From Bacteroidia bacterium (lineage in GTDB: Bacteria > Bacteroidota > Bacteroidia > CAILMK01 > JBBDIG01): a stretch of DNA of 64,000 nucleotides. The stretch lies in assembly GCA_040880525.1 (NCBI GenBank), contig JBBDIG010000014.1, positions 62,001 through 126,000 of the forward strand, given 5' to 3'. The notes under the pieces were generated by a model. That model made no database searches and had not been told where the DNA came from. It saw only the letters and a program-made list of their open reading frames with translations. The translations under genes and the position numbers were made by a program. Of the stretch, positions 8,065 to 30,507 are shown piece by piece (the stretch's first letter is position 1; every line of letters begins with the position of its first letter).

Positions 8065-9471
8065 ATGTCAGATAAATTTGATGTTACTATAATAGGATCC
8101 GGGCCGGGTGGATATGTGGCCGCCATACGTTGTGCGCAACTGGGTTTTAAAACCGCAATTATTGAACGCTATAATTCACTGGGAGGTACGTGCCTGAATG
8201 TGGGCTGTATTCCTTCCAAAGCGCTGCTGGATTCTACAGAACATTTTGCGCAGGCAAAGCACCAGTTTAAGGAGCATGGGATTGAAATCGAAGGATTGTC
8301 GCTGGATTTTAAGCAAATGATAAAGCGAAAAGGGGAGGTGGTGAAGCAAACTACCGGAGGCATTGATTTCCTGATGAAGAAAAATAAGATCACAGTATTT
8401 ACAGGCCATGCCTCTTTTAAGGATAAAAATACGATCGCGATTAGAAAAGACGGCAACAAAACGGAAGAGATCAAAACGGAGAAAGTGATCATTGCCACGG
8501 GCTCCAAGCCCGCAAGTTTGCCCAACATTGAAATTGACAAAAAAAGGATCATTACCAGCACTGAAGCACTGGAACTGGCCGAAGTGCCGAAAAAGCTGCT
8601 GGTCATCGGTGGTGGATATATCGGTTGCGAGATGGCCGCAGTTTACAACCGCATCGGATCAGAAGTCACCATCGTAGAGTTTATGGACAAGATCATCCCG
8701 AACATGGACAGCGACCTGAGCAAGGAATTGACACGCGTTTTCAGAAAATCTAAAATAGATATAAAGACCAACCATAATGTTACAGGCGTCAGCGTGGAGG
8801 GCAACAAAGTGACGCTAACGGCAACTGACAAGAAAGATAAGGAAGTGGTGTTTGAAGGCGATTATTGCCTGGTGGCGGTTGGCCGCAAACCATATACTGC
8901 GGATCTGGGGTTGGATAAAGCCGGACTTAAGACGAATGAAAAAGGTTTCATACCAGTGAATGGCCACCTTGAAACAGAAGTTGAAGGCATCTTCGCCATA
9001 GGTGATGTAATTGGCGGATTGATGCTGGCGCATAAAGCAGAGGATGAGGGCAGCTATGTAGCTGAGTATATGGCCGGAGAAAAGCCACATATTGATTACA
9101 ACCTCATACCGGGCGTAGTGTATACCTGGCCGGAAGTAGCTTCAGTCGGAAAATCAGAGGATCAACTGAAGGAAGAAGGGCGCGAGATCAAAACCGGCAA
9201 GTTTCCTTTCAAGGCAAGTGGCCGGGCGCGGGCAAGCATGGACACTGACGGCTTCATAAAGATTATTGCTGATGCCAAAACCGATGAAGTGCTGGGTGTA
9301 CACTTGATAGGCCCGCGCATGGCCGACCTGATTATGGAGGCAGTTGTGGCCATGGAATTCCGTGCTTCCGCTGAGGACATTGTAAGGATGAGCCACCCGC
9401 ACCCAACCTATAGTGAAGCCATGCGGGAAGCAGCGATGGGCGCTACCGGAGACAGGGCCATTCATATATGA
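8065..9471 (+). CDS. lpdA: Dihydrolipoyl dehydrogenase (E3)
   Basis: FAD flavoprotein that reoxidises dihydrolipoamide with NAD+ as the E3 subunit of 2-oxoacid dehydrogenase complexes or the glycine cleavage system. 468 residues, normal length. Features seen: the N-terminal FAD-binding GSGPGGYVAAI, the redox disulfide GGTCLNVGCIPSKALL (about 39-54), the NAD-binding GGGYIGCEMA (about 179-188), the second FAD motif AIGDVIGGLMLAHKAEDEG, and the catalytic His-Glu pair in HPHPTYSE near the C-terminus. It is monocistronic here with its own promoter; no E1 or E2 gene is adjacent, so it may serve several complexes. Confidence 0.97.
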   Translation: MSDKFDVTIIGSGPGGYVAAIRCAQLGFKTAIIERYNSLGGTCLNVGCIPSKALLDSTEHFAQAKHQFKEHGIEIEGLSLDFKQMIKRKGEVVKQTTGGIDFLMKKNKITVFTGHASFKDKNTIAIRKDGNKTEEIKTEKVIIATGSKPASLPNIEIDKKRIITSTEALELAEVPKKLLVIGGGYIGCEMAAVYNRIGSEVTIVEFMDKIIPNMDSDLSKELTRVFRKSKIDIKTNHNVTGVSVEGNKVTLTATDKKDKEVVFEGDYCLVAVGRKPYTADLGLDKAGLKTNEKGFIPVNGHLETEVEGIFAIGDVIGGLMLAHKAEDEGSYVAEYMAGEKPHIDYNLIPGVVYTWPEVASVGKSEDQLKEEGREIKTGKFPFKASGRARASMDTDGFIKIIADAKTDEVLGVHLIGPRMADLIMEAVVAMEFRASAEDIVRMSHPHPTYSEAMREAAMGATGDRAIHI

Positions 9472-9523
9472 TCCTTGTTCTCTCATTCATTTTACCTTGC
9501 GCTTCAATTCAAAAATCTGCATC

Positions 9524-9970
9524 ATGAAATACTTAGTAGCTCTTTTTACCCTGGCCTTCTCCTATAGTATCGTTATGGCACAGACGAACGGGGAATGGGT
9601 AATGCACGAAACGGTGATGCCTAACACGCAACCTGAAGTAAAAATCCGGTTCGACAAGCAGTTGAATGCCGGGTTAATCACTTTAGAAGAACTGCAAGCT
9701 TCAGAGTACCTCACGGTGGTGGTGGATACCGCAAACCCTGACCAGCAACTGGAAGTAAAAGGTTTTGTTATGATCACCGAGAGCGTTGATGGAAATTCCG
9801 CTTTTTTCAAAATGAACTCAGCAAATTTGGGAGATACCTTTAAAAGCATGCTCACTGAATTGACTTCCGGCTCAAAAATCATAATTACCGAAGTTATTTA
9901 TCAGAATGAAGAAGGCGAAGAAGTGACCATTGCCGAAGGCTCAGGAACATCTATTCTTGTGATTAATTAA
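9524..9970 (+). CDS. Small secreted protein of unknown function
   Basis: 148 residues beginning MKYLVALFTLAFSYSIVMAQ, a standard Sec signal peptide with a cleavage site after the Ala-Gln region. The longer frame back to 9413 runs into lpd and is rejected: the ATG at 9524 is preceded by a promoter-like TACCTTG (9493-9499, one T short of TAnnTTTG). The mature part is rich in beta-prone residues with no cysteines, and I recognise no domain. It ends SILVIN, without a T9SS sorting signal. Its 3' 152 bp occur again in diverged form at 11226-11378, so a paralogue or partial duplication once existed next door. Confidence 0.75.
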   Translation: MKYLVALFTLAFSYSIVMAQTNGEWVMHETVMPNTQPEVKIRFDKQLNAGLITLEELQASEYLTVVVDTANPDQQLEVKGFVMITESVDGNSAFFKMNSANLGDTFKSMLTELTSGSKIIITEVIYQNEEGEEVTIAEGSGTSILVIN

Positions 9971-9998
9971 GGAGGAAATTTTTCACCGCACCTTCCCC
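9819..9998 (+). repeat. Copy 1 of a diverged ~180-bp direct duplication
   Basis: This segment (3' part of the small secreted gene, its stop, and 28 bp beyond) matches 11226-11406 with about 19 differences over 181 aligned positions by hand. The match ends where the minus-strand codons GKVR-stop, the C-terminus of the gene at 11391-12850, are also preserved in this copy (9984-9998). So copy 1 includes the last codons of the downstream convergent gene although that gene itself is 1.4 kb away. Confidence 0.85.
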
Positions 9999-10038
9999 TC
10001 ACTTTTCAACCGGCCAACGTGTGATGTTGATGGCAATC

Positions 10039-10161
10039 TCATGCTTCCCCATTTCGGAAAAGCTCCAGGAGATATCCACCTGGGCCAAAATGTTCATACA
10101 GAGAAACGCCTTCCCGGAAGCTGCCAGAGCGGAGCCATTTTGCAATTACTTTCAATGCCAT
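10039..10161 (-). CDS. Short ORF, probable fragment of a small Bacteroidota protein
   Basis: A 40-residue frame, MALKVIAKWLRSGSFREGV then SLYEHFGPGGYLLELFRNGEA. The pattern of an Ile/Trp-containing helix, then 'GVxLYExxG', then 'LLxLFRxGE' is one I recall from small Bacteroidota proteins annotated as hypothetical; this is memory and not a search. It stops early, and an overlapping frame stays open to 10001 (ending ITRWPVEK), which suggests a frameshifted remnant rather than an intact gene. It lies on the same strand as, and downstream of, the other ORFs of the inserted patch. Confidence 0.35.
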   Translation of the reverse strand: MALKVIAKWLRSGSFREGVSLYEHFGPGGYLLELFRNGEA

Positions 10162-10227
10162 TGGGCGAAAGTAGAATTTTGAATAAAAGACTTGAAGGAC
10201 GATGACAAATAGCCAAATAAAGACTTA

Positions 10228-10779
10228 TCAATTATTTTTTAGCTTCTCAAGTATTTGTATAACCTTATCTTGATTTCTATTAATACGTGCAAATGTTGCT
10301 AATTGATGCGATTGTGAGAGTAGCATTTTTTTATATAAGTTATCTTGGATTTTATAAACACTGTCTATTTTTATATATAATTCTAATAGCTCTCGGTCAA
10401 TATCGCATCTATGCAAATCGACCAGTACTTTCCTAGCAACTGTTTCAGACAAAATTATATTGGGGGAATCCACAAACAAATGTCGGTCCGCCATTTTTAA
10501 ACTATCCACTAAACCTGTTTTAGCTTTGACCCTCATTTCTAAGTCGGTAATTTCATTTTCATAAAATTCTCGCTGGGATTTAAGTTTTGTTATTGCACGA
10601 TCTATTTGATTCTCTTTCAGAATTTCATTTTCTGTTTTAACTAGTTCAATTGTACTGTCCTTAGTTTTGATTTGTTCCTGATGAATGATGTAGGCATAGG
10701 AAAGTATTATCGGAATGCCAACAATCATTATTATGTCACGTATGAGGGTTACAATCTCTTTAAATTTCTTCATAATCAT
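10228..10779 (-). CDS. Membrane-anchored coiled-coil protein, unknown
   Basis: Starting at the ATG at 10777-10779 this gives 183 residues (or 181 from the ATG at 10771-10773). One N-terminal hydrophobic helix (IIMIVGIPIILSYAYII, about 15-31) is followed by a long charged helical region with heptad-like spacing (TIELVKTENEILKENQ, ITKLKSQREFYENEITDLEMRV), so it is likely membrane-anchored with a soluble coiled coil. Its base composition is clearly more AT-rich than the flanking genes, suggesting acquisition. The ATG overlaps the stop of the upstream 56-residue ORF (ATGA), which indicates translational coupling. No family is recognised. Confidence 0.55.
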   Translation of the reverse strand: MIMKKFKEIVTLIRDIIMIVGIPIILSYAYIIHQEQIKTKDSTIELVKTENEILKENQIDRAITKLKSQREFYENEITDLEMRVKAKTGLVDSLKMADRHLFVDSPNIILSETVARKVLVDLHRCDIDRELLELYIKIDSVYKIQDNLYKKMLLSQSHQLATFARINRNQDKVIQILEKLKNN

Positions 10780-10946
10780 CTCTCCTTCAGCAACCACACA
10801 TAGTGGCCACCAATAAATTTATAAGTAAATCCATTCTCCTTCAGCAGATCATAAACCTGTGCCGGACTATAGTCCTCTGAAGGATAAAGCTCCTGAAGCC
10901 TGTCAAAGAGCAAAACCGTTCTCAGCCGCAAATCAGCCGCGTCCAC
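10776..10946 (-). CDS. Small ORF (56 aa) coupled to the coiled-coil gene
   Basis: Reading from GTG at 10944-10946 to TGA at 10776-10778 gives a 56-residue protein: VDAADLRLRTVLLFDRL, then QELYPSEDYSPAQVYDLLKE, then NGFTYKFIGGHYVWLLKER. The frame is open a little further up to a stop near 10980 but contains no ATG. The tidy end (a helix, then a beta-like GFTYKFIGGHYVWLLK) and the ATGA overlap with the next gene argue for real coding capacity, though it may be the C-terminal remnant of a longer protein. Small proteins ending in a 'GxxYxxxxGxYxWLLK' pattern are familiar to me from Bacteroidota accessory or phage-like regions, unverified here. Confidence 0.45.
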   Translation of the reverse strand: MDAADLRLRTVLLFDRLQELYPSEDYSPAQVYDLLKENGFTYKFIGGHYVWLLKER

Positions 10947-11225
10947 TTCATTTACCGGTTCATTACATCTCCAATATCTTCGCTATCATGCCAGGCAATT
11001 CTTCGTGTACATCATCCATAACAGGCCATAATATTCACCCGGAGCGAATCCGGGCTTATTTCACGGACGCCCCTGGCGCTGTGGCCATGGTTCCGTGCTC
11101 TTCAGTAAATCAAATCACGTGTACGGCTCAAAACTACACAAAAAAAAGCCCCGGCAAATCTCTTTACCAGGGCTACTTCCTGTATACATGAAAGATACAG
11201 AAGACTATTCTCTATTCGCTTTCGC
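10947..11225. other. Gene-free remainder of the inserted patch
   Basis: No convincing coding region. A short minus-strand frame reading VMDDVHEELPGMIAKILEM-stop lies in front of the 56-residue ORF, and there is an 17-bp hairpin (CCCGGA and TCCGGG, 11038-11054). The plus-strand frame from 10859 to 11191 has no recognisable features and I consider it spurious. Confidence 0.4.
11138..11174 (-). terminator. Hairpin plus T-tract on the minus strand
   Basis: On the minus strand AGCCCTGG (11174-11167) pairs with CCGGGGCT (11154-11147) with one mismatch, loop of 12, followed by a run of eight T (11146-11139). It would terminate transcription coming from the 11391-12850 gene, about 220 bp beyond that gene's stop, or mark the upstream border of the inserted patch. 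Confidence 0.6.
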
Positions 11226-11378
11226 CAGCAAATTTTGGGAGCTCAGTTTAAAAGCATACTCACGGAATTGACTTCCGGCTCAAAAATCATTATTACCGAA
11301 GTTATTCATGAGAATGAAGAAGGCGAGGAAGTGACCATTGCCGAGGGCTCAGGATCATCTATTCTTGTGATAAATTAA
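11226..11378 (+). pseudogene. Remnant of a second copy of the small secreted gene
   Basis: Encodes the same C-terminal stretch as 9524-9970 (FKSILTELTSGSK, IIITEVIHENEEGEEVTIAE, GSGSSILVIN-stop) with a handful of substitutions (M to I, Y to H, Q to E, T to S). There is no upstream start, no signal peptide, and one extra T at about 11233 shifts the frame relative to copy 1. It is therefore a 3' fragment and not a working gene. Confidence 0.8.
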
Positions 11379-11406
11379 AGCGGAAAACTCTCACCGCACC
11401 TTCCCC
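11226..11406 (+). repeat. Copy 2 of the diverged ~180-bp direct duplication
   Basis: Pairs with 9819-9998. This copy keeps its native context on the right side (it runs into the intact 3' end of the convergent gene at 11391), whereas copy 1 keeps the native context on the left side (the intact small secreted gene). The 1227 bp between the copies (9999-11225) look like an insertion flanked by an unusually long target duplication, or the scar of a tandem duplication with partial loss. Confidence 0.8.
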
Positions 11407-12850
11407 GCCACCCATTCATTGTAGTCTATGAGTTCTTCTTCCACACCTGATTCGGTGGGAAATCGCTGGCCAAAGCTTTTCACGGATTCCTGCACTTTGG
11501 GATCGTGCTTAGGATCCACGGATTCGTTCATTGAATTCAGGACGTTTAAGAAAATGCTTTCCCGTGCAAATTCTTTGGTCTGCAGAAATTCTTCGTAATC
11601 TTTTCCAACTTGCTTCAGGCGTCTGCGGAGGACATCATAGTCTCCCAGTTCATAGCGAATAATGAGTTCGGCCAGTGCGATCTTCATCTTTACTGACGCG
11701 TCCACGGTCTCATATTCTGTCAGTAGATAGAGCCGGTTGATGTGTTGAAAAGCGTTGTAATAGTCCTGACGGATAAAGAGCAGGAGCGCCAGGTTAGTAT
11801 AAATAAATACTTTATAGAAAGAGAAATTCCTGATCTTTTCGTCCGTCTTCAATTTCTCAAGGATTGCAATTGCCTTCTCAATATTCTTACGCGAATAATT
11901 GATCACCAGGGAATTGTAGTAGAAGAAGTAATACTTATCGAATAACAACTGGTTGTATTCCTCCATGCCCTCTTTGAGCTTTTCTGCATATTGCAGCGAT
12001 TCTTCCGTGCGGCCGGTTTTATACAGTGCATTCACGATGTAGGTGAGCATCTGCAATTTATGATCATGGGTGGTTTTGGTGAAAATGCCATCGCGGTAAA
12101 CTCATCGTGGGTGCGGAGCAGATAGTCGGTCAGCGCCTGGAAATCCTGCCGTTGCAGCAGTATCTGGCTTACGGAGCGGTATAGCTTTATCCGGAGCTTA
12201 GTGCTTTTTTGCAGATCCAGCGAGCCTTTATGTTTTTCAATCAGGCTCTCCAGCATTGAGATGATGGATTCATTTTTACCTGAAAGCGTTTGAGAGATCT
12301 TGAGGCGGTAGCTGATAATGGCCAGGAGGTCATCTATCTCGCGCAGTTGTCGCAACTGTCCCCGGTTAGCGCTTCGTTTGGCAATAAAAGTCTCGGGGTT
12401 GATGGAGAGGATTTCGTGAGACAGCCGGATGAATTCTCCATAGATGATGTCAAGGAGTTCATAGTTTTCAAGCTTCTGCGCATATTTTTCCGCCTTCTTT
12501 AAAAAATGCAGGGAAAGTTCAAACTGGTTCTGATTATAATAATACCGGCAAAGTGCGAGCAGGTTATGCAAATAAACTTCTTCGTCCTTGCTAAAGCTTT
12601 GAAGCAGAATGCTCTTGTTAAGGTCTGTTACGAGCCGATTTTTAAGCCTGTAAAATGGATTCTTATCACTGCCTTTGTATAATAATCTGAAAGCTTCATC
12701 ATCACTAAAGTCTTCACCGCTCCTTCGCACCATGTCAAAAAGCTGCAGATCTTTGCGGTCCTGTTGTACATGAATGCGGGCCGTATAAAGCTTGAAATGC
12801 CGGACATCTTCCTTATTCATGGAACTCACTAACCTTTCTAAAATATCCAT
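11391..12850 (-). pseudogene. Helical-repeat (TPR-like) cytoplasmic protein, interrupted by one frameshift
   Basis: Two adjoining frames on the minus strand form one gene: 12850 to about 12095 starts MDILERLVSSMNKEDVRHFKLY, and about 12090 to 11391 continues DGIFTKTTHDHKLQMLTYIV and ends NEWVAGKVR. Together they make about 485 residues, almost entirely amphipathic helices with TPR-like spacing (LHNLLALCRYYYNQNQFELS, LHFLKKAEKYAQKLENYEL), no signal peptide and no membrane segment. The shift lies at about 12088-12100, where the first frame runs off (FSPKPPMIINCRCSPTS) and the second becomes sensible. The site is not a long homopolymer. I recognise it only as a Bacteroidota-type conserved protein of unknown function. 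It may be truly broken or a one-base sequence error. Confidence 0.75.
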
Positions 12851-12916
12851 TGGGATGGTGTTTTTGAAGGGGTAAGATAATAATTTTTATGATATGCAAT
12901 AGTCGGTTGTTTTAAA

Positions 12917-12924
12917 TAGGTTTG
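12917..12924 (+). promoter_or_regulatory. Bacteroidota -7 element (TAGGTTTG)
   Basis: Exact TAnnTTTG match, 28 bp before the ATG at 12953. Confidence 0.55.
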
Positions 12925-12952
12925 TGGAGAAAATATTAAAGCAGCTATCGTT

Positions 12953-13627
12953 ATGAAAAAATCCCTTCTTCTTCCCATTCTTTTTCTGCTGGCCACTCAC
13001 TGGGTCTCGGCTCAAAGCTCTCTTGGAGTAATTGACATACTGGAATTTCCCGCCACCGTCAGATCCGGAGACTCTATAAATTTTATTGCCGTAGTACAAA
13101 ATACAGGGAATGTTACAATTCCCAACGGAACGTTAATCTCCATCTCCATGGCGATAAATGGCGACTTGGATTCGATGGAGTTGGTTGGAATGGATACGCT
13201 CACAGAAGATCTGGATGCAAGTGATACAGTTGAAATACGGACAGATCAGACCATCCGGATCACGGCTCCGCAATACCATATAGGAGGGGTGAATATCATT
13301 GTCGTATGGCCGTCTGCGAATAGCATTCTTACCACGGATTCAGTAACCCGGCAATTTTATGTAGACTATGCCGTAGGGATTGAGGAGAACCGGGGAAATG
13401 AGGCTTTTGAACTTTTCCCGGTGCCTGTTCAGGATAAGCTTTATCTGAATCTTGAATCAGGTGTTGAACTTGAAGAGGTAAGAATAACTGATATGGCGGG
13501 CCGGTTACTATTCAGAACAGAATTGAAAGAGGTTGATGTCCGGACCCTGGCTCCCGGTACTTATATTATAAAGGCTAAACTCAGGGACGGGCAAATCATT
13601 ACAAGGAAATTCGTAAAAGCAGGTTAG
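12953..13627 (+). CDS. T9SS-exported protein with CARDB-like beta domain
   Basis: 224 residues. An N-terminal Sec signal peptide (MKKSLLLPILFLLATHWVSA-Q) is followed by a single beta-sandwich-like domain of about 120 residues (DSINFIAVVQNTGNVTIP, the sort of 'nonlinear, with gap for tension' sequence seen in CARDB/DUF11-type cell-surface domains). From about residue 150 there is a type A T9SS C-terminal domain (FELFPVPVQDKLYLNLES, VRITDMAGRLLF, LAPGTYIIKAKLRDGQII, TRKFVKAG). It should therefore be carried across the outer membrane by the type IX system and either released or anchored. No catalytic residues are visible; a binding or structural role is inference. Convergent with the peptidase gene, 6 bp apart. 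Confidence 0.8.
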   Translation: MKKSLLLPILFLLATHWVSAQSSLGVIDILEFPATVRSGDSINFIAVVQNTGNVTIPNGTLISISMAINGDLDSMELVGMDTLTEDLDASDTVEIRTDQTIRITAPQYHIGGVNIIVVWPSANSILTTDSVTRQFYVDYAVGIEENRGNEAFELFPVPVQDKLYLNLESGVELEEVRITDMAGRLLFRTELKEVDVRTLAPGTYIIKAKLRDGQIITRKFVKAG

Positions 13628-13633
13628 CGCGGT

Positions 13634-15538
13634 TTACCGTCCCAGGTAGTGTACTTCAGCTTTTTTCCCGATCAGGCGGATTGCTTCCGGGTTTCCAACG
13701 ATCCTGCCGTTTTTACCAATGATCAGCTTTGATTTTTTCATCAGCCAGATCTTACCGTTCTCGCCCATATCCAATTCCGAATCATCTTCAATAATCAGCG
13801 TTGCCTTCTTTTCCAACGTTATAGAGCCGCTTTCAGTGAATACAAGCCTCGTTTGGGGAGGCACCTGGTTTTCCCTGATTGCTGTGCCGGATTCATTTAG
13901 CAGCAGCATTTGATCTTCTTTCACCACCAGACTGTCATGCAATCGAATATCTCCTGTCCACCGGGCCGGACGGTCCAGGTCAAAATCGCCATAGCCCATC
14001 CGGAGGCGGACCTGTTGGCTATCCATTTCCAGTACCTCAATGTGAATTCCGCTAATATGAACCACCGGGCGGTCTTTTCGTGTACCATTGCTGGCGGTGG
14101 AAGGATTGGTGCTCAAGCTGAATATATTTCTTCCCTGCTCTGAAGTGAATCCATCCATTTTATCACCAATAAAATAAGGCATCGTATCAATCCCGCTGTT
14201 AATGTAGAGCAGCACTTTGAGAATGTCTTTCTGGCCGACCTTGTCGTCCCCGTCTTTATCCAGCTTCATGGCATCCCTGTCTCCAAATCCGAGGAACGGA
14301 TTGGGTGCCAACCTTAGCAGCGGAAGGTGTTTGGTACCATCCGGTACCGGATGGCGGATGGTATCAGCCAGTGCATAGTCAAAGTTACCGTCAGCCTCTT
14401 CAAGATCCAGATGGTGCGGGCCGTTTTCCCTGGTTTGATGAAATATGTAAAGTCCGGTCGCACCCTGATCCACATTGTTGAATGCAGCCTTATTCGCATG
14501 GAATTCGAGCAGAAAATATTCGTCAGGCACATGCGGCAGGGCAATGCGCGCCATATTGCCCGTGGTAATAAAATCCCGCAGAACCAGCTCTTGTGCCTCT
14601 TGGCCGGGAACCATGTCCACATTGTATTCTCCCCATCCCATATAAAAACGGTCCCAGGCATTTGCCGCATCGCTTGCTGATCCTGAAAGAGCTGCCAGCC
14701 CCCAGGAACTGTGCAGCACGTAATCATTCCCATACCGGTCGTTTACGGAGGCGTAATGATGCCGCGTCAGGAAGTGCGCCAGTTCATGGCGATAGAGGTA
14801 GCGCAGCCCGTTGATGCTGGAATTGTTAACGTTGAGATACAATCCGGAACCGAGGGATCCTGTATTGATGGACAATGAATCATTTAAATGGATCCTGTTG
14901 CCATAGAGCATGGCCACGCCTCCGGAATGGCCGATCCACGTACATTCCGGACAAAGACGGGTAGGCGGCAGGCGGTAAAGGATCGCGATGTTATCAATTT
15001 CGCCATCCGGTTTTTTTCGGTAGTGGCCGGTGCGCTTGTCCTTTCCCCACCGGTCGAAATCGTTCCAGTCCACAAGGCCACTGTCAATTACCTTGCGAAG
15101 GGCCTCAGCATTTGTAGCACCGTATTGTCCGTGTTTGTGATAATAGGAGGGTGGGCTGTCAAGTTGAACCACAAAAGGATAAAATTCTCCCCAGTAGTAA
15201 AATCTCCCCTGTGAAGCTTCCTGAAAATAATGGGTCAGGCTTTTTTCGGGAAATGAATCTTTGCTGGTAGCGAGCAAGAGATCCAGTTCAGGTATCCGGG
15301 TCAGCGAATCGGCCGGCCACATTCCCCTTATTTCCTGTTCTCCGGGAAATTGTACCAGGATCACAAGTGCCTTTAGTGTATCAAAAGCGGGAAGCGAAAA
15401 TCCCTTGCTGGAATCAATGGGCGGGAGTGCAGGCTGATAGGGATAGGTTTTTAAATATTGTTGAGCTGCCGCAGGGGAAAAAATTCCTGTAAACATTAAC
15501 CCCAGAAATACATATCGTATCAGGACAATGAATTTCAT
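13634..15538 (-). CDS. Secreted M6-like metallopeptidase
   Basis: 634 residues from the ATG at 15536-15538, which begins a clear signal peptide (MKFIVLIRYVFLGLMFTGIF, then SPAAAQ); the longer frame from 15676 would run through the divergent gene's start and is rejected. The zinc motif HELAHFLTRHH is at 251-261 and is preceded by a D-N/I-rich segment typical of M6 (immune inhibitor A-like) peptidases that also contain 'ALVILVQFPGE' near the N-terminus (57-67). At 427-449 a DKDGDDKVGQKDILKVLLYI segment resembles one half of a dockerin/EF-hand calcium motif. The last 120 residues form short hydrophobic beta repeats (LVVKEDQMLLLNE, TRLVFTESGSITLEKKA, LIIEDDSELDMGENGKI) like a small beta-solenoid; there is no standard T9SS C-terminal domain. 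Confidence 0.75.
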   Translation of the reverse strand: MKFIVLIRYVFLGLMFTGIFSPAAAQQYLKTYPYQPALPPIDSSKGFSLPAFDTLKALVILVQFPGEQEIRGMWPADSLTRIPELDLLLATSKDSFPEKSLTHYFQEASQGRFYYWGEFYPFVVQLDSPPSYYHKHGQYGATNAEALRKVIDSGLVDWNDFDRWGKDKRTGHYRKKPDGEIDNIAILYRLPPTRLCPECTWIGHSGGVAMLYGNRIHLNDSLSINTGSLGSGLYLNVNNSSINGLRYLYRHELAHFLTRHHYASVNDRYGNDYVLHSSWGLAALSGSASDAANAWDRFYMGWGEYNVDMVPGQEAQELVLRDFITTGNMARIALPHVPDEYFLLEFHANKAAFNNVDQGATGLYIFHQTRENGPHHLDLEEADGNFDYALADTIRHPVPDGTKHLPLLRLAPNPFLGFGDRDAMKLDKDGDDKVGQKDILKVLLYINSGIDTMPYFIGDKMDGFTSEQGRNIFSLSTNPSTASNGTRKDRPVVHISGIHIEVLEMDSQQVRLRMGYGDFDLDRPARWTGDIRLHDSLVVKEDQMLLLNESGTAIRENQVPPQTRLVFTESGSITLEKKATLIIEDDSELDMGENGKIWLMKKSKLIIGKNGRIVGNPEAIRLIGKKAEVHYLGR

Positions 15539-15541
15539 TAA

Positions 15542-15549
15542 TATCTTTG
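15542..15549 (+). promoter_or_regulatory. Bacteroidota -7 element (TATCTTTG)
   Basis: Exact TAnnTTTG match, 16 bp before the ATG at 15566. It lies in the 27-bp gap between the divergent peptidase and DUF4920 genes, so the two promoters must overlap each other or the opposing coding start. Confidence 0.6.
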
Positions 15550-15565
15550 TAAAAAAATTAAAACG

Positions 15566-16099
15566 ATGATGAAAAATCTTTTGATACTCCCGCTGGCAAT
15601 AATGCTCCTGGGCAGTTGCAGCGAACAGCCTACCGAAAATAAAGCCAATCGTTCGGAGAGTTTCTCCGCTGTCCAAACCGGATACGCTGATCAGGATGGT
15701 GAATATTATGGTGAAAAATTCGATATTTCAAAAGCACAAAGTGTTGATCAAATGGTAAAACGGGTTCTCAAAAAAGGCTCCTATCAAACCACCGTGAAAG
15801 GCACAGTAAAGGAAGTGTGTCAGAAAAAAGGATGCTGGATGAAACTGGTGCAGCAAAAGGATGAAGACGTAATGGTAACCTTTAAGGATTACGGATTCTT
15901 CGTTCCTAAGGACATTTCCGGAGAAACCATTTATATGCATGGCACGGCTTCTTTGGATACCGTTGATGTGGCCACGCTGCAGCACTATGCAGAAGATGCC
16001 GGCAAATCACAAGAGGAGATTGACCAGATTACCGAACCGGATGTGCAGATGGCATTCAAGGCGGATGGCGTTTATCTGGAGCGGGCAAAGGAACAGTAG
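15566..16099 (+). CDS. DUF4920 lipoprotein
   Basis: 177 residues with a lipoprotein signal peptide (MMKNLLILPLAIMLLGSC, lipid-modified Cys 18). The mature part matches the Bacteroidota DUF4920 family: YYGEKFDISKAQSVDQMV, then VKGTVKEVCQKKGCWMKL, then VTFKDYGFFVPKD and YMHGTASLDTV. The GTV-x-EVCQKKGCWM segment with its two cysteines suggests a metal- or redox-linked role, but the biochemical function of the family is not known to me. It has its own promoter (15542-15549) and a terminator at 16126-16175. Confidence 0.88.
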   Translation: MMKNLLILPLAIMLLGSCSEQPTENKANRSESFSAVQTGYADQDGEYYGEKFDISKAQSVDQMVKRVLKKGSYQTTVKGTVKEVCQKKGCWMKLVQQKDEDVMVTFKDYGFFVPKDISGETIYMHGTASLDTVDVATLQHYAEDAGKSQEEIDQITEPDVQMAFKADGVYLERAKEQ

Positions 16100-27242: not shown

Positions 27243-30032
27243 ATGATATATTATGTTAAGGTTTTGCCCTTTGCTCTTTTTCTTGTATTTGTTTCAATGT
27301 TTGCCTCTGCACAATCCCCCAATTTCCAATGGGCCAAGCAACTTGGTGGTAATCTTCAGGACGTTAGTAACTCCATCACAATAGACGATTCGGGAAATGT
27401 CTATATCACTGGAGCATTTCGAGGTGCATGTGATTTTGATCCCGGCATTAATACATCGGTGATGGTCTCTGCTGGAGAAGAAGATCATTTTATTTCTAAA
27501 CTGAATGATTCAGGGAGTTTTGTTTGGGCTAGGCGCATGGGTGGAACTTCATCAGATTTGGGCTTATCAATAGCCGTTGATGATGTTGGAAACATTTACA
27601 CTACCGGCTACTTTGAAGGGACCGCTGATTTTGATCCCGGTATTGATACCTTTTTACTGGTCTCGGAAGGAAGTAGGGATATTTTTATTTCTAAGCTGGA
27701 TGCCTCGGGAAATTTTGTCTGGGCTAAGGGACTAGGCAGCCCTTCAGATGATGATGGCTCTTCTTTGGTTTTAGATGACTCAGGAAATCTCTACATAACC
27801 GGAAAATTCTCAGACTCTGTGGATTTTGATCCAGGACCAAGTACTTCTTATTTGAAATCTGATCAAGATACGGATCCGTATGTTCTAAAACTGGATACAG
27901 CCGGCAATCTTATTTGGGTTAAACATTTTGGGGGTACTAGAGGTATCGATATTTTCGTGGATGACTCCTTTTATGTTTATACTACCGGAACATTTGCAAC
28001 CATTTCAGACTTCGATCCCGGAGTTGATACTTTTAATCTGTTTCCTACCGGACATTATGATACCTTCATTTCTAAATTGGATTCTGGAGGGAATTTTATT
28101 TGGGCGAAACAATTAGGAGGTAGTGGGAACCAAACTGCCCATTCTGTTGTGGTAGATGATTCTGGAAGCGTTTATACGGCAGGATTTTTTAACGGTAATG
28201 CAGATTTTGATCCTGGTGTTGATACATTCGAACTCTCGGACAAAGGAAGAGGTGATATTTTCATATCTAAAATTGACGCCTATGGAGACTTTAAATGGGC
28301 AAAGCAGTTTGGAAGTACATCTCTCATGATTAATTCTGCTTCTTCCCTTGCGTTAGATAATGCTGGAAATATATATTCCATAGGAGGCTTCACTGGAAAT
28401 GTTGATTTTGATCCAGACACTGGGATTTTTAACTTAAGTTCATTGGGACCTTTCGATATTTTTATTTTGAAGCTAAGTTCTTCTGGTGATTTCATCTGGG
28501 TTACACAATTGGGAAGTTCAGGTACCGACTACGGTTCCAGCATCTTTGTGGACAGCCTGGACAATATATACACTACGGGGCATTTTGCTGGAACAGTAGA
28601 TTTTAACCCAACCAATGGGGTAGCTAACATGAGTTCCTTCGGAGCGCAGGATGTCTTTATTCATAAGATGTCCTCATGTCATTCCCGCGTAACAATAACT
28701 CCCTCCGCCTGTGATAGTTATATGGTACCAAGTGGGAAAGAGACATATACCATAAGCGGAATTTATATGGATACTCTTGCTAATGCTCAATCATGTGATA
28801 GCATTATCACTATCAATTTAACGATTAACCAACCAACTACTTCATCACCAGTGGTTAATGGATGCGATTCATTTCAATGGCACGGACGTATTTTTCATGC
28901 TTCGGGAACTTATTTCGATACCATTTCGAATGCTGCTGCATGTGATTCTGCTATTACGTTGAACTTGACGATTAATAGATCTTCTGCATCCACACAGAAT
29001 ATATTATCATGCTCTGATTTTTTGTGGCAGGGAAATACATATTCTACCACTGGAACCTATTATGACACGATTCCTAACGTATCGGGTTGTGATTCAGTCA
29101 TGATGCTGAATTTAGTTATCAACCGTACTGCTTCCACCTTAATTGATACTGCCTGCGATGTTTATTTCTGGCAGGGCCAGACTTACACTTCATCCGGGAC
29201 TTATTATGATACTATACCTAATGCGCAGGGTTGCGATTCAGCAATGACCTTGCTTTTAAATGTTAAAAATTCAACAGCTTCCTCGCAAACCGTAATCTCT
29301 TGTGATTCTTTTTTATGGAGAGGGAACAGTTACACCCTCTCGGGAAATTATTCTGATACAATTCCAAATTTCATGGGTTGCGATTCGGTAATAATATTGA
29401 ATTTGACAATTCATAATTCAACAGGATCCTTGCAGACCGTTACCTCCTGTAATAATTTCTTTTGGCAAGGAGGAATTTACTCCTCTTCTGGAACCTACTA
29501 TGACACTATTAAAAATAGCTTTGGTTGTGATTCTTTAATGACTCTTATTTTGACCATTGACACTGTTGACATTTCTGTTACAGTCAACGATCCTAAACTT
29601 ACATCTAATGCGCAGGATGCAAGCTATCAATGGATAAATTGTGATGCTATGCAGCTCATTCCCGGGGATACTAATGCAATTTTTATTGCCACCACAAACG
29701 GAAACTACGCAGTTATTGTAGGGCAAACAGGCTGTGCCGATACTTCTGTTTGTTACCTTATTTCAAAGGTGGGAATAGCTGAAACTGTTTTTGAGAAAGA
29801 ACCTATAATATTTCCAAATCCTACTGATGGGGTGATATTTATTCTGTTTGATAAAGCAACAAACCATGCAACTTTGCGGATTTCCAATCTTTATGGGAAA
29901 GTTATAATAGAAAAAACCAGTCTCAACAGCGATGAATTGGAATTGGATTTTTCTGAACAGGCATCGGGCATCTATCTACTTGAAATATTGGAAAAAAGAA
30001 AGATTTTCAGAGCTAAGATAATCAAGAACTGA
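27243..30032 (+). CDS. Large T9SS surface protein with two repeat arrays
   Basis: 929 residues from ATG 27243, starting with signal peptide MIYYVKVLPFALFLVFVSMF-ASAQ. Residues about 27-480 hold seven units of about 60-66 residues of the pattern FxWAKQLGG, then VDDSGNxYxTGxFxGxxDFDPG, then DxFISKLDxxG: an SBBP-like repeat array fitting a seven-bladed propeller, with Asp-rich loops that probably bind calcium. Residues about 481-775 hold six units of 47-50 residues, each with two cysteines (CDSFLWQGNTYTxSGTYYDT, then IPNxxGCDSVMTLNLTI). After a PKD-like linker comes a T9SS sorting domain (IIFPNPTDGVIFILF, SGIYLLEILEKRKIFRAK). It is an adhesin- or mat-type surface protein by inference. Clearly more AT-rich than neighbouring genes. 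Confidence 0.85.
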   Translation: MIYYVKVLPFALFLVFVSMFASAQSPNFQWAKQLGGNLQDVSNSITIDDSGNVYITGAFRGACDFDPGINTSVMVSAGEEDHFISKLNDSGSFVWARRMGGTSSDLGLSIAVDDVGNIYTTGYFEGTADFDPGIDTFLLVSEGSRDIFISKLDASGNFVWAKGLGSPSDDDGSSLVLDDSGNLYITGKFSDSVDFDPGPSTSYLKSDQDTDPYVLKLDTAGNLIWVKHFGGTRGIDIFVDDSFYVYTTGTFATISDFDPGVDTFNLFPTGHYDTFISKLDSGGNFIWAKQLGGSGNQTAHSVVVDDSGSVYTAGFFNGNADFDPGVDTFELSDKGRGDIFISKIDAYGDFKWAKQFGSTSLMINSASSLALDNAGNIYSIGGFTGNVDFDPDTGIFNLSSLGPFDIFILKLSSSGDFIWVTQLGSSGTDYGSSIFVDSLDNIYTTGHFAGTVDFNPTNGVANMSSFGAQDVFIHKMSSCHSRVTITPSACDSYMVPSGKETYTISGIYMDTLANAQSCDSIITINLTINQPTTSSPVVNGCDSFQWHGRIFHASGTYFDTISNAAACDSAITLNLTINRSSASTQNILSCSDFLWQGNTYSTTGTYYDTIPNVSGCDSVMMLNLVINRTASTLIDTACDVYFWQGQTYTSSGTYYDTIPNAQGCDSAMTLLLNVKNSTASSQTVISCDSFLWRGNSYTLSGNYSDTIPNFMGCDSVIILNLTIHNSTGSLQTVTSCNNFFWQGGIYSSSGTYYDTIKNSFGCDSLMTLILTIDTVDISVTVNDPKLTSNAQDASYQWINCDAMQLIPGDTNAIFIATTNGNYAVIVGQTGCADTSVCYLISKVGIAETVFEKEPIIFPNPTDGVIFILFDKATNHATLRISNLYGKVIIEKTSLNSDELELDFSEQASGIYLLEILEKRKIFRAKIIKN
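27324..28684 (+). repeat. Seven tandem ~190-bp units encoding propeller repeats
   Basis: Seven consecutive coding repeats of the SBBP/FDPG type. DFDPG is kept in units 1 to 5, DFDPD in unit 6 and DFNPT in unit 7, so the last units have drifted. Confidence 0.8.
28685..29560 (+). repeat. Six tandem ~145-bp units encoding Cys-pair repeats
   Basis: Six coding repeats, each with CD near the start, a W-x-G motif, an SGTYYDT motif and GCDS near the end. The two cysteines in each unit probably form a disulfide outside the cell. Confidence 0.8.
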
Positions 30033-30507
30033 AATTATTACCAGCTAACTTCCACATAATTTGTATAAGTTATCATCAAGCTGTTGCAATACCTCATCTT
30101 TCAACTGATTTAACCATCCCAGCTATTTTGAATGTTCTTTGGTACTTAAAGTATTTATAAGAAAAAAATTTAAACGAGTATTACAGATGGTTCGTTCCTC
30201 ACCATGCCAATTTGGAGCAAACTACTGGGGCTGTTCATTGCTAATTTATATTCGTCTGCATAGGGAATTTAAAAAACAATATTGATTAGCATTTAGTGGT
30301 ATTTTAATGGAAAAATGTTAAAAGCTCTCCAGTCATTTGATACCGGCAATACTCAATAGCGTAGGCTAGAGGATTGACTCCTGTACTCCATTATTTTCAT
30401 GATAGAACAATTTAATATTAAAAGTATTAATAAGCTAAACTGAGTTTTCAGCATTACGGATGGCTGGGCCCAAAAATCCATTCGGTGCTATTATCCTGCA
30501 TGTGCCA
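30033..30507. other. AT-rich gap without recognisable genes
   Basis: No frame with start, length and composition of a gene on either strand; no tRNA-like cloverleaf or terminator hairpin was recognised. It may be decayed accessory DNA, in keeping with the AT-rich neighbour gene. Confidence 0.4.

Follow-up and report, generated by a model that had tools for sequence, protein, structure and literature searches.

Organization of the locus

The region described here lies near the start of the window, by which we mean the whole 64-kb stretch of DNA analysed, and comprises two convergent genes, A and H, with a further segment set between two copies of their junction. Gene A (9524–9970, plus strand) is an intact open reading frame for a predicted secreted protein of 148 residues with a signal-peptide-like start, which matches the GldM C-terminal domain in Pfam (PF12080, GldM_4th-like, E = 3.3e-7, above the curated cut-off). 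Gene H (11391–12850, minus strand), delimited from its open reading frame and from homologue searches, encodes a helical-repeat protein of a family widespread in Bacteroidota, its best relative being 51% identical. A single-base frameshift at about 12086–12094 interrupts H at a point where its orthologues are continuous, and reflects either recent breakage of the gene or a sequence error. Together with a divergently placed secreted gene bearing a C-terminal sorting domain (Por_Secre_tail), H forms a pair (11391–13627) that recurs at many Bacteroidota loci.

The duplicated junction is seen as two imperfect direct repeats, at 9819–9998 and 11226–11406. An earlier note on this DNA had reported diverged direct repeats of about 180 bp with about 19 differences in 181 positions, and pairwise alignment gives just this, with 18 mismatches and one 1-base gap over 181 columns. 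A repeat search recovered this pair as well (89% over 176 nt) and reported none besides it among direct repeats of 40 nt or longer in the 64-kb window, so that the pair is not a product of chance. Each repeat covers the final ~50 codons of gene A with its stop codon, an intergenic spacer of 13 bases, and the final five codons of H, which is convergent with A. Copy 1 (9819–9998) holds the 3' end of A, the 13 bp and the GKVR-stop of H on the minus strand; it adjoins the intact gene A and, as the earlier note had claimed, retains an H tail; these 15 bp are identical in both copies. Copy 2 (11226–11406) holds a 3' fragment of A of ~50 codons that has no start, the 13 bp and the true 3' end of H. 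The likeness between the repeats ends at 11226, and a search with gene A recovers only residues 99–148 there, in keeping with the description of copy 2 as a 3' gene fragment joined to H. Neither the repeat alignment nor the gene A search found a second A, full-length or clearly decayed, upstream of copy 2. In the whole genome, gene A is present as one copy plus this 50-residue fragment; since it is otherwise single-copy, copy 2 is a fragment either of A itself or of an orthologue. Among 395 genomes of the class, gene A gave weak matches only (E of 3e-4 or worse).

The differences between the two copies are unevenly spread, affecting 5 of the 13 intergenic bases, 13 of the 153 coding bases and none of the 15 bases of the H tail (Fisher p = 0.006). 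Such a spread is what would be expected had both junctions been in use during their divergence. The likelihood ratio of divergence in use over decay in situ is 1.4–3.4 at an omega of 0.2–0.4, and reverses under strong selection (0.11 at an omega of 0.1); as the site classes were picked after viewing the alignment, we treat this comparison as weak evidence. The changed codons comprise five synonymous and six other changes, a synonymous excess that on its own (p = 0.12) is compatible with neutral decay.

Composition and genes of the intervening DNA

The segment between the repeats, hereafter the patch, spans 1227 bp (9999–11225) and is present once in the genome, where it matched itself alone. 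Measured against the window (mean GC 0.458, standard deviation 0.040, 600-bp windows), it is a composite of a left part of 187 bp (GC 0.465), a core of 605 bp (GC 0.317) and a right part of 435 bp (GC 0.457). The patch had earlier been described as AT-rich over its whole 1.2 kb; this applies to the core (10186–10790), about 3.5 standard deviations below the window mean, whereas both flanks have near-host GC. A further AT-rich stretch lies at 29450–30100, where a 965-codon gene ends, with 600-bp windows down to 32% GC.

On the minus strand of the left part (9999–10185) there is a frame of host-like codon usage whose TGA stop (9999–10001) sits at the very edge of repeat copy 1, overlapped by a 40-codon frame (10039–10161); protein searches returned no relatives of the left-part frames at convincing E-values. 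The core carries a 183-codon orphan gene (10228–10779, minus strand) for a protein whose hydrophobic N-terminal helix precedes long helices or coiled coil. Its open frame of 186 codons exceeds the maximum of 177 obtained in 2000 mononucleotide shuffles, and it is a real gene. Family and profile searches assigned no family to the protein, and its predicted model is all-helical and of low confidence.

A winged-helix-like frame of 63 codons (10776–10967, minus strand) ends on the start of the 183-codon gene, the stop and start overlapping as ATGA (10779–10776). Translational coupling, which the earlier note had ascribed to the ORFs of the patch in general, is thus seen for this one pair and not for the others. 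The 63-codon frame has host-like codon usage (codon score 0.177), matches HTH_33 below the Pfam cut-off (E = 3.7e-4), and is modelled as helix–helix–two-strand with a pLDDT of 77. Foldseek paired this model with SmtB-type and archaeal-virus F93 winged helices, none of them significant (E above 1). Upstream, and in another frame, the stretch 10963–11019 (minus strand, MDDVHEELPGMIAKILEM) probably supplies the 5' part of the same gene, and judging from the reading frames the two are probably one short gene split by a single-base frameshift near 10965.

Within the right part, an intrinsic-terminator-like hairpin of 12 pairs followed by a T run (11147–11174, minus strand) was found by consensus match. 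Two terminator-like matches were found against 1.8 expected in shuffled sequence, and the stem of this one is long. It is positioned to end minus-strand transcription from H, downstream of that gene by way of copy 2. A terminator correctly placed for H is the clearest feature of the patch that has a likely use. Nothing in the patch exceeded the Rfam thresholds, the weak matches falling mostly at the terminator, and PADLOC gave no defence gene. The patch probably does little at present.

Searches for the source of the patch

The checks proposed in the earlier note, against phage and mobile-element collections and against other loci, were run, and the patch proved single-copy in the genome and matched nothing significant in phages, plasmids or viral contigs, whether searched as DNA or as protein; nor was a copy of the repeat sequence found in these collections. 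Searched in relatives, the patch proteins gave nothing beyond weak matches to coiled coils and short matches that look like chance. For the short protein there were three matches near chance level (E of about 0.001–0.004) from three related genomes among 396, and the one inspected falls within SecA. No transposase or known mobile gene was recognised among the patch proteins, and no integrase family was matched in the patch; Phage_integrase matches are absent from this contig and present on other contigs. No pair of terminal inverted repeats spans the two patch ends, at 9999 and 11225.

Relatives and the wider neighbourhood

In two relatives of the same order (G003 and G009, of one genus; loci L089 and L093), lpd is followed directly by a DUF4920 gene. 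In the window, lpd (8065–9471) and the DUF4920 gene (15566–16099) lie about 6.1 kb apart, and the interval (9472–15565) holds gene A, the patch, gene H, the sorting-domain gene and a large secreted protein. Relative to these two genomes, therefore, not only the patch but the whole block is lineage-specific. Other relatives of the order have a different gene after lpd, which leaves the ancestral order not certain. At 13634–15538 a secreted protein of 634 residues is encoded, with a zinc-protease-like HELAH motif and no Pfam match at 0.001.

The family of this organism is represented by one genome in the collection searched, and no relative with a single A/H junction or an empty site was found there. 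We also looked for an old, syntenic arrangement with two full-length paralogues, which would have pointed to ordinary duplication with gene decay: no relative searched carries gene A at this place, and those examined have no patch. Of the proposal that a later event duplicated the A/H junction, what stands is that the junction is present twice, once beside a whole A and once with no more than a 3' fragment of it; no single-junction relative was found, and the data do not single out a specific mechanism.

Origin of the duplicated junction

On one side A is intact, on the other a 3' piece of it is joined to H, and 1.2 kb of single-copy DNA lies between the two. The reading we tentatively put foremost is that recombination inserted DNA at the junction of these convergent genes, that the incoming DNA brought its own diverged copy of the junction, and that the locus is now a worn scar of this insertion. 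The incoming molecule would have carried its own A 3' end and H 3' end, already about 10% diverged, and one crossover within the shared A/H stretch would have joined it to the chromosome. This molecule would have been either a small integrative element, of the kind that rebuilds the end of the gene it enters, or a piece of imported DNA that recombined through its homology. If it was circular, a single step would leave A whole, place the cargo downstream and put the gene-end copy beyond it. Any integration gene would have been lost afterwards, the short regulator-like gene and the orphan coiled-coil gene remaining.

Known systems offer partial parallels. Site-specific islands at gene 3' ends integrate in this manner. 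In Macrococcus caseolyticus, the McRImecD islands at the 3' end of rpsI are bounded by imperfect extended direct repeats of 160–163 bp, and in McRImecD-1 the element-borne copy is at the gene and the displaced original rpsI 3' end on the far side (PMC5341023). These islands measure 16–18 kb and encode a tyrosine integrase, and McRImecD-1 is able to excise (PMC5341023). Our locus resembles them in anatomy only: the patch adjoins a protein-coding gene at its 3' end, and the repeats, of ~180 bp, are imperfect. It differs in that the patch is 1.2 kb long and holds no recognised integrase. Another such case is prophage e14, which brings a diverged replacement 3' end for icd. Integration within a gene end, together with such a replacement, would on the insertion reading be shared by the locus studied here, but e14 is a prophage remnant with phage genes and the patch has none. 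The attachment site of e14 lies in icd of Escherichia coli (PMC5431349). Import by homology has its own precedent in homology-facilitated illegitimate recombination, or single-crossover import, where one homologous end can set unrelated DNA beside a homologous stretch (PMC3240628). In its usual linear form this process alone would not leave the insert flanked by the homology on both sides; that would take a circular donor or some further event.

Several observations favour insertion: the contrast between an intact A and a 3' fragment on the two sides, the imperfect repeats of ~180 bp, comparable to those of McRImecD-1 at rpsI, the uneven differences between them, the single-copy state of the patch with its AT-rich core, and the lineage-specific character of the surrounding block. 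Half of the patch DNA is of foreign make-up. Against insertion, the patch has no recognised integrase, transposase or mobile gene, neither it nor the repeat has a copy in phages, plasmids or viral contigs, two of its three parts have near-host GC, and no empty site was seen among the relatives searched. Of the marks of a target-restoring integrative element, imperfect repeats of the target 3' end are present on both sides, and no integrase family is matched inside the insert. A more specific version, in which the unit was a minimal, non-autonomous integrative element of about 1.2–1.4 kb that combined a copy of the target gene end with a two-gene cargo and used recombinases supplied elsewhere, seems to us very unlikely; the cargo would then be a predicted winged-helix regulator and a predicted membrane-anchored coiled-coil protein.

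Nearly as likely as crossover with incoming DNA, and ranked slightly lower, is a tandem duplication in situ that included the 3' ends of A and H, with the middle, comprising the second H and the start of the second A, later deleted or replaced by the patch and the spare copy decaying neutrally. Tandem duplication is common, and this account requires no mobile element; the genome has, the fragment aside, one gene A, and the mixture of synonymous and other codon changes fits neutral decay. On the other hand, it would take several steps for a single-copy, partly AT-rich segment of 1.2 kb to come to lie precisely between the two repeats, and under moderate selection the uneven spread of the differences fits slightly worse. 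Alternatively the contig could be a chimera, in which assembly merged two strains or species that occurred together and whose A/H junctions had diverged. This is improbable: although the assembly consists of 60 contigs and has no close reference, and sequence errors could explain the single-base frameshifts seen in H and the short gene of the patch, the patch would have to be common to both sides, the contig is 165 kb long with a low estimated contamination (0.02), and no other split gene is evident among the long ORFs of the window. Direct repeats flanking a partly foreign-looking segment could also suggest target duplication by a classical transposon or insertion sequence, which we consider extremely unlikely. 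With such elements, as the earlier note had pointed out, the duplicated target is short, the copies here differ by about 10%, the sole transposase match of a patch protein (IS630) is non-significant (E = 0.17), and the patch ends show no matching inverted repeats.

Significance of the locus

The locus looks unusual in detail and ordinary in the kind of event behind it. As one scar in one genome, situated in the lineage-specific block between lpd and the DUF4920 gene, it is of modest significance as seen. Should the minimal-element reading be true, it would represent a very small target-restoring element. The locus illustrates, in compact and readable form, the duplication of a gene end on either side of foreign DNA with the gene itself kept whole.
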